Assembly (NCBI GenBank): GCA_028287395.1
Contig: JAQBPR010000003.1
Location: forward strand, 62,001 to 126,000
Length of the DNA stretch: 64,000 bases
Source: Bacilli bacterium
GTDB lineage: Bacteria; Bacillota; Bacilli; Paenibacillales; NBRC-103111
Direction: 5' to 3'
Both the position numbers and the translations under genes were made by a program. The notes below the pieces were generated by a model. It was not told where the DNA came from. It did no database searches and saw only the letters and a program-made list of their open reading frames with translations. Positions 1,816 to 6,413 of the stretch are shown here, one piece after another (positions within the stretch are counted from its first letter, which is position 1; the number at the start of each line of letters is the position of its first letter).

Positions 1816-1852
1816 GGAGTCACTCCTCTTCAAATAATGAATTACCTATCCT

Positions 1853-1881
1853 TTGACAATCAGAAAAATAAATGATATAAT
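1853..1881 (+). promoter_or_regulatory. Perfect-consensus sigma-A promoter on the plus strand
   Basis: TTGACA (1853-1858), a 17-nt spacer and TATAAT (1876-1881) match the sigma-A consensus at all twelve positions. It points away from helD, into the helD-polC gap, and no plus-strand gene lies downstream. The nearest downstream signal is the terminator at 1967-1998. Confidence 0.6.
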
Positions 1882-1931
1882 AGAATTGGATATATTTATT
1901 CGATTATATATATTTTTCCAACGATCATTTC

Positions 1932-1960
1932 ATTGTACTATGACTTCTTATAGGTTGCAA
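1932..1960 (-). promoter_or_regulatory. Candidate sigma-A promoter of helD
   Basis: On the minus strand TTGCAA (1955-1960) is separated by 17 nt from TACAAT (1932-1937), about 115 nt before the helD start codon. Spacing is ideal and both hexamers are close to consensus. It lies just downstream of the polC terminator, so helD would be transcribed independently of polC. Confidence 0.5.
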
Positions 1961-1966
1961 CATAAA

Positions 1967-1998
1967 CAAAAAACTCTGGATAATTCCAGAGTTTTTTG
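1967..1998. terminator. Bidirectional Rho-independent terminator (polC / predicted sRNA)
   Basis: Perfect 8-bp stem ACTCTGGA / TCCAGAGT with a TAAT loop, flanked by A-runs and T-runs that extend the pairing. It reads as a terminator on both strands: for polC on the minus strand and for the predicted small RNA on the plus strand. Confidence 0.85.
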
Positions 1999-2014
1999 TT
2001 TGTCAGGCACTCTT

Positions 2015-5000
2015 TTAAAATAACGAAAGCTGGTTCGATTCCGGCATTCCACGAAAGCAGCCTAATGAATTTAACAGCTCAATCACGGTCTTTGAAACCT
2101 TCGATTTTTGTTGAAAATCTTCAACGGAAAGAAAGTCTCCTTCGTCCTTGGCAACAGCAATTAATTTGGCTGCATTGTCACCCACACCCTGCACGGCAGA
2201 AAAAGGTGGGATTAAGCAATCACCCTCAATAACAAACTTAAGCGCATCGGATTTATAAATATCGATCGACTTGAAGCTGAGCTTTCGAGCGGTCATTTCC
2301 AAGCCCAATTCTAAAATCGAGATCATCGCTTTTTCTTTCGTCGTTGCTTGGAAGCCTTTTCCTTCAATTTCATTTAATTTTTTAAGAATGGCATCGTAAC
2401 CTTGGCAAAATACCTCAACATCAAAATCTGCGGCCCTCACCGTAAAATAAGTCGCATAGTAAGCAATCGGATGATAGACCTTAAAATAAGCGATCCGCAC
2501 TGCGGAGATAACATAGGCGGCAGCATGCGCTTTTGGAAACATATATTGAATTAAATCACAAGAATCAATATACCATTGCGGCACCTTGTGCTTTTTCATA
2601 TCGTCTCTCCATTCTGCCGTTAACCCTTTCCCTTTACGCACGCTTTCCGTTATTTTAAACGCCAAGCTCGCATCCATTCCGGCTTTGTAAATCAAATAAA
2701 GCATAATATCATCCCGGCAGCCAATCACTGTTTTAATATCGCATGTTCCTTTGCGAATTAGTTCTTGCGCATTGCCCAGCCAAACACCTGTACCATGTGA
2801 GAGTCCAGATATTTGTAATAAATCGGCAAAGGAGGCCGGTTGTGTTTCCTGCAGCATTTGGCGAACAAATTTTGTCCCCATTTCTGGAACACCATAGGTC
2901 GCTACAGGAGTACGAATCTGTTCAGGCTTCACATCAATGGCATCCGTAGAATTGAAAATACTCATGACCTTGCTATCATTCATCGGAATCGTTGTTGGAT
3001 CAATGCCCGTTAAATCCTGAAGCATTCGCATCATGGTTGGATCATCATGACCTAATATATCGAGTTTAAGTAAATTTTCGTCAAAAGCATGATAATCAAA
3101 ATGGGTTGTTTTCCATTCAGAGCTTTGATCGTCCGCCGGGAATTGAACGGGTGTGATTTCTTCCACATCCATATAATCAGGAACAACAACGATTCCGCCG
3201 GGATGCTGACCTGTGCTGCGTTTGACCCCAGTGCAGCCGGAAGCAAGCCGATTTAATTCCGCATTACGCCAGCTTTTCCCTTTATCCTCTTCATACTTTT
3301 TCACAAAGCCAAACGCTGTTTTATCCGCCACTGTGCCAATCGTTCCTGCACGAAATACATTTTTCTCACCAAAAAGCACTTTGGTATAATTATGCGCTTC
3401 AGCTTGATATTCTCCAGAAAAATTCAAATCAATATCGGGAACTTTATCGCCCTTGAAGCCAAGAAAGGTTTCAAAGGGAATATCTTGCCCTTCTCCGCGC
3501 AAATGGTTGCTGCAAACCGGACAAACCTTATTGGGCAAATCGAATCCACTCGGAATACGTCCGTCTGTAAAAAACTCGCTAAATTTACATGAAGCACAAG
3601 TATAATGCGGCGGCAGCGGATTCACCTCAGATATACCCAGCATTGTGGCCACAAAGGAAGACCCTACAGAACCACGTGATCCAACCAGATAGCCATCTTC
3701 ATTTGATTTCTTTACAAGTCGCTCGGAAATAAGATAGTTGGCAGAAAAACCATATTGAATGATCGGATTAAGCTCTTTTTCTAAACGCAGCACGACAATT
3801 TCAGGTAATTCTGAGCCGTAAATTTTTCTAGCCGTTTCATAGCAAGTGTTGCGAATTTCATCATCGGCTCCTTCGATAATCGGTGAAAACAAACCATTAT
3901 CCGTCGGTCCGCCTTTTTTCGGGAATAGAGAGATTTCTTCAAATTGATCGGCTAATTCGTTTGTATTCGTAACCACGACTTCGCGTGCTTTGGTCTCGCC
4001 AAGAAATTGAAATTCGCGGATCATTTCATCTGTAGTGCGAAAATGAACGTCTGGCTTGTTCAACTCTTTTAAGGGACTGAAACCTGTAATTCCAAAAATC
4101 GTAATATCGCGATTCATCTTATCTCGTGGGTTAAGATAATGCACATTGCCCGTAGCGATAACGGGTTTATTATATTTGATACCGATATCACAAATACGAC
4201 GAATGGTCAGTTCAAGATGTTCGCGACTGCTTACCAACCCTTTATCGACAAGATGCATATAAAGTCCGATCGGTTGAATCTCCAAGACATCATAGAATTC
4301 AGCGACCTGCTCAGCCTCTTCCAATGATTTATTTAAGACTGCTTCAAAAAATTCACCCTTCTCACAACCTGAAGCAATGAGCAATCCTTCTCTCATTTGA
4401 ATCAATTTGCTTTTGGGTATCGTTGCCACTTTATTGTAGTGCTCTGTATGAGAGATCGAGATCAGTTTAAATAAATTCTTTTTACCGACGGCATTTTTCG
4501 CATAGATACAACAATGAAAAGGACGCGTATTGCGCAAATCAATCCCTGCATAGTTATTTAATTCACTGAGAAAGCGAATATTGCGATCCGCTGTTTCTTT
4601 AATCAATTGATATAAAATATGGCCTAGTGCTTCTGCATCCGCAATCGCTCGATGGTGGTTATCCAAGCTAATTTTAAACTTGTCTGCAAGCGTATTAAGA
4701 CGATGATTTTTCATACCGGGAAAAAGAAACCGCGCGAGCTCCAGTGTATCCAATACCGGATTTAAACATTCCGGAATACCTAAAGTTTTGCAATTGGCTT
4801 GTATAAAGCCCATATCAAATCTAGCATTATGTGCCACCAATACGGAATCACCGATGAAATCAACAAACTGCGGCAAAACCGTTTCAATATCGGGAGCATC
4901 TTGAACCATATCATCTGTAATGTGTGTAAGCTGCGTAATATTGTAAGGAATGCTTTCATGTGGATTGACGAAGCTGGAAAATTCACCGATCACTTTGCCT

Positions 5001-6346
5001 TCCTGCATTTTCACCCCGGCAATTTCGATTATGCGATTATTCATTACAGAGAGACCCGTAGTCTCTATATCAAATACAATATAGGTTGCGGCCTCTAAAG
5101 CTAGATGCGCTGCATTAAATACGATTGGAATTGAATCGTTTACGACATTGGCTTCCACCCCATAAATCACTTTAATTCCATGCTTTTTGCCTGCTTTATT
5201 CGCGTCCGGAAAAGACTGCACCCCACTGTGATCGGTGATTGCAATTGCTTTGTGACCCCAACGAGCCGCTGTTTTAATATATTCATCCACAGGTGTGATT
5301 CCATCCATCGTACTCATTGTGGTATGTAAATGAAACTCTACCCTCTTCTGCTCGGACTGATCCATACGTTCTTGAGGTGCTGTAACTTCATTAATATCCT
5401 GCGGAATTAACATAAGCTCCGGTGGCTGTCCAAAGCGATCATATTCAACCTTCCCGCGCACTTTAATCCATTTGCCGTTAGCAAGTAAATTATAAATCTT
5501 TAAATCTTCTTTTCCTTTAATGAAAGCTTTAATCATTAGAGAATCACTAAAATCGGTCACATAAAATTGATAGAGTGTTGTTCCGGTTTTTAAAATCTTC
5601 ACTTCAAGTCCAAAGACCATGCCTTGCAATGTGATCTTCTTCTCTTCCTCGACAATCTCTTGAATAGGTACCGGAATATCCTTTATCTCATAACCTACCA
5701 TTAATTTCAAATCTTCGCCCGCAGCTTGTGCAGCTTCTACTTCTTTTTCCATCGATGTGACGATGCTTTGCGATACGATTTTCTCTTCCTGCTCAATTTG
5801 TTGCGCAAAAAGTTCATATTCTGCTTCATTCGACTCGCTGACTGTAAAACGAATTGTAAGCTCCCTTGCGAAAAAATCGCGAAAATAGCGTTGAATCCAT
5901 AGATCCAAGCTTTTTTTCTTTGCAAGATCCATGCCAATTTGATCCAGCATGCTTAATGTCACAGCTTCTCCATTGACCTCAATTTTCGCTTTACTTAGCC
6001 AGCCATTTACGGAAGCTACTTCACCTTGAATCCATTCATTGCACAGCCCCCAATATGCTTCTACCAAAGCCTTTCCGGGAACATCAGCAGAGTCATACTG
6101 CATGACAAAATCAATCTGTGCAATATGCACAAATTTTTCACGAACCTTTTGACAAAATGCTTGGTATATATCCTGCGGAAGGATCTGTTTTTTTGCGATA
6201 AAAAAGCTCCATTGACTATTTTTGCGACTTACCTCGACTCGATCTATATAACCTTCTGCAAAAAATCCATCTATGACATTCAGAGGAATTTCTGCTTGCT
6301 TCAATAACAGTTCAAACCGATGCCTTTTTTCAGTCAACTTACTCAT
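2015..6346 (-). CDS. polC: DNA polymerase III alpha subunit, Gram-positive PolC type
   Basis: Replicative DNA polymerase with built-in 3'-5' proofreading exonuclease; 1443 residues, the usual PolC length. An N-terminal and OB-fold region is followed by a PHP domain (HLHTTMSTMDG near residue 337), which is split by a DEDDh exonuclease starting at VFDIETTGLS near residue 419. A zinc-binding stretch (CASC ... CPVC) lies near residue 917 and the polymerase catalytic region (PDIDLNFSGE) near residue 970. The start at 6346 is chosen because AGGGGGAAG precedes that ATG; an in-frame upstream start at 6388 would lie inside the proS terminator. It follows proS as in B. subtilis and ends at a strong terminator. 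Confidence 0.97.
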   Translation of the reverse strand: MSKLTEKRHRFELLLKQAEIPLNVIDGFFAEGYIDRVEVSRKNSQWSFFIAKKQILPQDIYQAFCQKVREKFVHIAQIDFVMQYDSADVPGKALVEAYWGLCNEWIQGEVASVNGWLSKAKIEVNGEAVTLSMLDQIGMDLAKKKSLDLWIQRYFRDFFARELTIRFTVSESNEAEYELFAQQIEQEEKIVSQSIVTSMEKEVEAAQAAGEDLKLMVGYEIKDIPVPIQEIVEEEKKITLQGMVFGLEVKILKTGTTLYQFYVTDFSDSLMIKAFIKGKEDLKIYNLLANGKWIKVRGKVEYDRFGQPPELMLIPQDINEVTAPQERMDQSEQKRVEFHLHTTMSTMDGITPVDEYIKTAARWGHKAIAITDHSGVQSFPDANKAGKKHGIKVIYGVEANVVNDSIPIVFNAAHLALEAATYIVFDIETTGLSVMNNRIIEIAGVKMQEGKVIGEFSSFVNPHESIPYNITQLTHITDDMVQDAPDIETVLPQFVDFIGDSVLVAHNARFDMGFIQANCKTLGIPECLNPVLDTLELARFLFPGMKNHRLNTLADKFKISLDNHHRAIADAEALGHILYQLIKETADRNIRFLSELNNYAGIDLRNTRPFHCCIYAKNAVGKKNLFKLISISHTEHYNKVATIPKSKLIQMREGLLIASGCEKGEFFEAVLNKSLEEAEQVAEFYDVLEIQPIGLYMHLVDKGLVSSREHLELTIRRICDIGIKYNKPVIATGNVHYLNPRDKMNRDITIFGITGFSPLKELNKPDVHFRTTDEMIREFQFLGETKAREVVVTNTNELADQFEEISLFPKKGGPTDNGLFSPIIEGADDEIRNTCYETARKIYGSELPEIVVLRLEKELNPIIQYGFSANYLISERLVKKSNEDGYLVGSRGSVGSSFVATMLGISEVNPLPPHYTCASCKFSEFFTDGRIPSGFDLPNKVCPVCSNHLRGEGQDIPFETFLGFKGDKVPDIDLNFSGEYQAEAHNYTKVLFGEKNVFRAGTIGTVADKTAFGFVKKYEEDKGKSWRNAELNRLASGCTGVKRSTGQHPGGIVVVPDYMDVEEITPVQFPADDQSSEWKTTHFDYHAFDENLLKLDILGHDDPTMMRMLQDLTGIDPTTIPMNDSKVMSIFNSTDAIDVKPEQIRTPVATYGVPEMGTKFVRQMLQETQPASFADLLQISGLSHGTGVWLGNAQELIRKGTCDIKTVIGCRDDIMLYLIYKAGMDASLAFKITESVRKGKGLTAEWRDDMKKHKVPQWYIDSCDLIQYMFPKAHAAAYVISAVRIAYFKVYHPIAYYATYFTVRAADFDVEVFCQGYDAILKKLNEIEGKGFQATTKEKAMISILELGLEMTARKLSFKSIDIYKSDALKFVIEGDCLIPPFSAVQGVGDNAAKLIAVAKDEGDFLSVEDFQQKSKVSKTVIELLNSLGCFRGMPESNQLSLF

Positions 6347-6371
6347 TGTCTTCCCCCTAAGAAAAACTAAC

Positions 6372-6413
6372 AAAAAATGAAAGGGCAATGGAATTATTCA
6401 TCCGCTGCCCTTC
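6372..6413 (-). terminator. Terminator after proS
   Basis: On the minus strand AAGGGCA pairs with TGCCCTT around an 18-20 nt loop containing a further GGA/TCC pairing, followed by CATTTTTTG. It lies between the proS stop and the polC ribosome binding site. Confidence 0.6.

Follow-up and report, generated by a model that had tools for sequence, protein, structure and literature searches.

A conserved convergent promoter pair upstream of helD probably extends a rifampicin-relieved interference arrangement known from Bacillus subtilis

The stretch of DNA analysed here (hereafter the window; 64,000 nucleotides of a Bacilli genome) opens with helD on the minus strand (1-1815, ATG at 1815), which runs past the window edge and encodes a Class I, B. 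subtilis type RNA polymerase recycling factor. The product of the full gene matches NCBIfam NF041464 (HelD_BACSU) at 1082 bits against a cut-off of 419, and its best solved structure is 6wvk. Upstream on the same strand lies polC, encoding a PolC-type DNA polymerase III (2015-6388; NCBIfam NF001688, 1945 bits). The 199-bp gap between the two genes (1816-2014) holds a pair of facing promoters that overlap no other gene.

The plus-strand member of the pair, an antisense promoter of the Panti-helD type, occupies 1853-1881 and reads TTGACA-17-TATAAT, with its -35 element at 1853-1858, an extended -10 TG at 1873-1874 and its -10 element at 1876-1881. An earlier, sequence-only reading of this DNA had described a rare, perfect sigma-A promoter with a 17-nt spacer, pointing along the plus strand to no gene, and that description holds: the match is exact at 12 of 12 positions with the TG in addition, it is the sole such site in the window against 0.09 expected from shuffles, and the gene ahead of it, polC, is encoded on the minus strand. 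Across the genome, 19 sites match at 12 of 12 positions compared with 3 for a reversed-pattern control. Because two of the other perfect promoters (L133 and L150) adjoin T-box leaders, we consider these enriched sites to be mostly real and, in the main, working promoters; for the one at 1853 we infer plus-strand transcription.

The helD sense promoter faces it from the minus strand (1932-1960), with a -35 element TTGCAA at 1960-1955, a -10 element TACAAT at 1937-1932 and a spacer that is likewise 17 bp. It matches the consensus at 9 of 12 positions and has no extended TG. Taking sequence as a proxy, the antisense promoter would be the stronger of the two (12/12 vs 9/12; 17.0 vs 9.7 by position weight matrix). 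The predicted helD 5' leader of about 110 nt (1816-1926, minus strand), placed by promoter position and sequence, carries a Shine-Dalgarno element, AAGAGGAG, at 1830-1823.

Start sites predicted from the -10 positions fall at G1888 or G1889 on the plus strand and at G1926 or A1925 on the minus strand, 38-39 bp apart; the stretch 1888-1926 measures 39 bp inclusive. Downstream of the antisense promoter, a hairpin at 1962-2003 combines a 19-pair stem and a TAAT loop with T-runs in both directions, and would serve as a bidirectional intrinsic terminator for both the antisense RNA and polC. The terminator-scan listing does not include this hairpin, though the fold (z = -7.0 for 1888-2003) and the T-runs are present there. 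From promoter to terminator, the predicted antisense RNA would span about 116 nt (1888-2003, plus strand) and overlap the helD leader by 38-39 nt, close to the transcript of roughly 110 nt, ending at a bidirectional terminator, and the overlap of 35-40 nt proposed earlier.

Two other identities for this RNA were considered. The sole listed reading frame across it starts at a TTG within the -35 element, so the start of such a small protein would lie outside the predicted RNA. An Rfam search of the region returned sub-threshold matches only, none close to its gathering score. One of these, the Bacillus sRNA ncr1015 (RF02449), aligns end to end on the plus strand (1896-2002), but weakly, scoring 28.7 bits where the gathering score is 60. 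The weak E-values stem mostly from the terminator hairpin, and the ncr1015 likeness probably arose by chance from the terminator and the AT content.

A DNA-level search of relatives for an orthologous polC-helD intergenic region found none, since intergenic DNA of this kind diverges and polC is seldom next to helD; conservation was therefore tested at helD itself. HelD relatives came from two sources, 80 named genome contigs and 30 loci taken from related genomes, and together gave 103 distinct upstream regions, the window's included. They derive mostly from Paenibacillus and Brevibacillus, and also from Aneurinibacillus, Tumebacillus, Ectobacillus, Fictibacillus, Priestia, Bacillus and Paenactinomyces. 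Both strands were scored with a simple sigma-A matrix, and a convergent pair was defined by a score of at least 22 with starts 30-60 bp apart. Such a pair precedes helD in 89 of the 103 regions compared with 2 of 2060 shuffles, a count that overstates the number of independent events since related sequences are not independent. Among 246 control genes only two have a pair, and both represent one site (in L138) read from either flanking gene; this is the clean control set, an earlier one (14/283 over threshold) having been contaminated by alternative helD starts. Other geometries are less frequent in the helD regions (tandem, 8; divergent, 12). When the best sense and best antisense promoters are chosen independently, they lie 33-52 bp apart in 90 of 103 regions, with about 7 expected by chance. 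Loss of the promoter hexamers and terminator in relatives, which the sequence-only reading had named as evidence against itself, is thus the opposite of what was found.

These results bear directly on the simplest alternative, a spurious promoter in AT-rich DNA with the polC terminator incidentally downstream. The intergenic DNA is indeed rich in AT, and its several 9/12 sites are about as frequent as chance predicts; a perfect site is expected only 0.09 times per window, however, and 5000 dinucleotide shuffles of the region never produced a convergent pair scoring as high as the window's. Together with the geometry retained at helD, this makes coincidence extremely improbable, and the spread of that geometry across genera and helD regions is hard to explain otherwise. 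We regard it as quantitative evidence that selection keeps the antisense promoter in Paenibacillus- and Brevibacillus-type bacteria.

The conserved pairs share a common build. Their start sites are separated by a median of 41 bp (range 33-52), and the predicted starts of both promoters are enriched in G, in keeping with the B. subtilis pair, which starts with GTP. The antisense promoter outscores the sense promoter in 82 of 89 pairs; its -35 element is exactly TTGACA in 85, and it matches the consensus at 11-12 of 12 positions in 63 (all 12 in 23), compared with 7-10 of 12 for sense promoters. An extended TG is found in about 98% for both promoters, and an antisense-strand intrinsic terminator lies within the searched 260 nt in 85 of 89. 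Cultured carriers of the pair include Brevibacillus borstelensis (L020) and Paenibacillus lautus (L057). The remaining 14 of the 103 helD regions fall below threshold, including second helD copies and two borderline cases, and the device is therefore not universal.

Second copies are instructive in their own right. A second genome of the genus (G001) encodes several HelD relatives, and of the two examined, one has the pair (L195; score 23.2, 49 bp) and the other does not (L187). The same combination of one copy with and one without a pair was seen in G010 (L196 and L197). Paired and unpaired copies within one genome provide a natural contrast between helD with and without this control. Gene order varies as well: polC and rimP-nusA flank helD in the window's genome (L182; G000:C51:50001-63900), whereas in G001 rimP directly follows polC (L183), so either helD was relocated to this operon or the relative's operon has lost it.

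A separate convergent site was observed elsewhere in the window's genome, in L138 at about 1300-1660 (G000:C76, near 25176). Here the perfect promoter of an ammonium-transporter-like gene faces a promoter of similar score (9.9-10.0) 37 bp away, in the interval between that gene and a divergent one. Among the 19 perfect promoters this is the best convergent site besides that of helD; the next is in L143 (8.2).

The arrangement at helD has a precedent. Sudzinova et al. (NAR, January 2026; PMC12802891) used Northern blots, promoter mutation and in vitro transcription to show that B. subtilis helD is preceded by two opposing promoters, the antisense one stronger than the sense one, whose starts are separated by 39 bp. 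The antisense promoter represses helD by transcriptional interference, and rifampicin relieves it; mutation of the antisense -10 element leaves helD highly active and no longer inducible (PMC12802891). Induction is likewise abolished by swapping the promoters, by shortening the distance between them by 17 bp, or by a rifampicin-resistant polymerase (PMC12802891). In vivo, the antisense transcript, ashelD, runs to a proximal terminator and forms one species of about 90 nt; a further terminator is probably common to the upstream gene (PMC12802891). In the mechanism proposed there, the busier antisense promoter interferes with helD until rifampicin-bound polymerase jams it (PMC12802891).

By analogy, we propose that the site in the window is a helD convergent-promoter rifampicin alarm, and assign this reading a probability of roughly 0.83; transcription, the relative strength of the promoters in the cell and induction by rifampicin are here carried over from B. 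subtilis. The strong plus-strand promoter would fire continuously, and the short antisense RNA made from it would stop at the terminator shared with polC. Polymerases leaving it would dislodge polymerase from the weaker, slower helD promoter and thereby keep helD low. Were rifampicin, or another block to promoter escape, to act on some polymerases, the busier antisense promoter would be the one to jam, interference would cease, and polymerase could leave the helD promoter to make HelD, which would rescue and protect RNA polymerase. That the two promoters might interfere had been suggested from sequence, and the shared anatomy with B. subtilis makes it probable. Several features count against the full proposal. 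At 17 bp, the antisense spacer is shorter than that of helD and pps in B. subtilis (19 bp); the TG present in 98% of pairs is missing from the sense promoter; and some helD regions (14/103) are under threshold. The acidic tip of HelD is also only partly matched, D56, D57 and E60 of B. subtilis corresponding to S56, H57 and D60 in the window's protein, which has D59 in addition.

A different reading places the regulation in the plus-strand RNA itself, as a cis-antisense or trans-acting sRNA that would regulate the translation or stability of HelD by pairing to the helD leader or to other targets. The 38-39 nt shared with the leader would permit such pairing, and several relatives have a sequence-conserved 3' hairpin, ACGGAG(A/G)CG..CTCCGT, that occurs only upstream of helD in the loci searched. 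The overlap, however, leaves over 50 nt between its end and the helD ribosome site downstream, and the body of the RNA is unconserved, averaging 0.28 bits per column from +3 to +35 where most columns of the promoter boxes carry about 1-2 bits. Nor does any Rfam family score as high as its gathering threshold. Moreover, promoter swaps and promoter-escape measurements account for control in B. subtilis without a role for the RNA (PMC12802891). Since the RNA body is unconserved and fits no RNA family, the act of transcription is favoured over an sRNA regulator, in agreement with B. subtilis, and we consider a regulatory RNA unlikely. The earlier proposal of a small RNA controlling helD thus stands in part: a short antisense RNA is predicted, but the active principle is probably transcriptional interference.

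The conserved hairpin deserves mention apart from this question. It lies about 170-256 nt upstream of helD in several genera (L005, L012, L017, L018, L020, L022, L030-L032, L037, L038, L040, L042, L046, L054, L060 and L065), was seen nowhere else in the approximately 1.06 Mb of fetched loci, and forms the terminator of the relatives' predicted antisense RNA; the window's own hairpin differs. Terminators need not keep their sequence, and a second role, as a protein site or in the function of the RNA 3' end, is therefore possible.

Returning to the interference reading, the signal that relieves repression may not be rifampicin in particular, but a drop in GTP, sporulation or a shortage of working polymerase from any cause. 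In B. subtilis the antisense promoter needs more initiating GTP, helD rises in sporulation, and the authors themselves raise the sensing of other polymerase inhibitors as a possibility (PMC12802891). A rifampicin-resistant polymerase mutation nevertheless abolishes induction by rifampicin there (PMC12802891), and we hold this broader input to be rather doubtful as a replacement for the rifampicin alarm.

The spacers speak to a related idea. The antisense promoters of B. subtilis helD and pps both have 19-bp spacers, and the authors speculate that this length may matter (PMC12802891). Across all 89 pairs, antisense spacers measure 15-18 bp, and 17 or 18 bp in 87 of them; the matrix scoring penalised 19-bp spacers, but that penalty has no bearing on the finding that nearly every pair combines an exact TTGACA with 17-18 bp. 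We tentatively raise the possibility that the pair senses the state of polymerase in general and not rifampicin specifically, that in these Bacillales it is built around an antisense promoter with an almost invariant TTGACA and a spacer of 17-18 bp, and that it is kept when Class I helD relocates, as between polC and rimP. If so, the 19-bp spacer would be dispensable. The natural variants described here, namely the 17-18 bp spacers, the start distances of 33-52 bp and the helD paralogues with and without a pair, provide tests of which features the published model needs.

Finally, we compare the locus with known systems. It resembles PhelD/Panti-helD of B. subtilis in having a Class I helD downstream, a convergent pair upstream with starts 39 bp apart, an antisense promoter that is stronger (in the window, as judged from its sequence), a short terminated antisense RNA (in the window, predicted) and a terminator common to the upstream gene. 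Both promoters also have spacers within the 16-20 bp of this type, their predicted start distance would allow both to be bound, and the pair sits less than 300 bp from helD. It differs in its antisense spacer (17 bp, not 19) with a full 12/12 match, in its sense promoter without TG, in its upstream gene (polC, not yvgT), in having one terminator seen rather than two, and in the length of the predicted RNA (116 nt, not about 90). Ppps/Panti-pps of B. subtilis is likewise a convergent pair at a rifampicin-protection gene, although the gene is a different one. In the window's genome the sole PPDK_N match is an ORF of 915 aa, which we take to be, probably, pyruvate phosphate dikinase, and no pps counterpart was found there. 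The rifampicin-associated element (RAE) of actinobacterial helD likewise controls a HelD-type gene from upstream and has a link to rifampicin. The RAE is a palindrome of 19 bp within the leader, to which some factor may bind (as described in PMC12802891), whereas the window has a convergent promoter pair and its palindrome is a terminator. Overall, a small RNA at an RNA polymerase recycling factor, put forward as new in the sequence-only reading, was anticipated by the arrangement and the ashelD of about 90 nt already shown in B. subtilis (PMC12802891), and the locus is well supported as a further example of that known device, extended here to Paenibacillus- and Brevibacillus-type bacteria.
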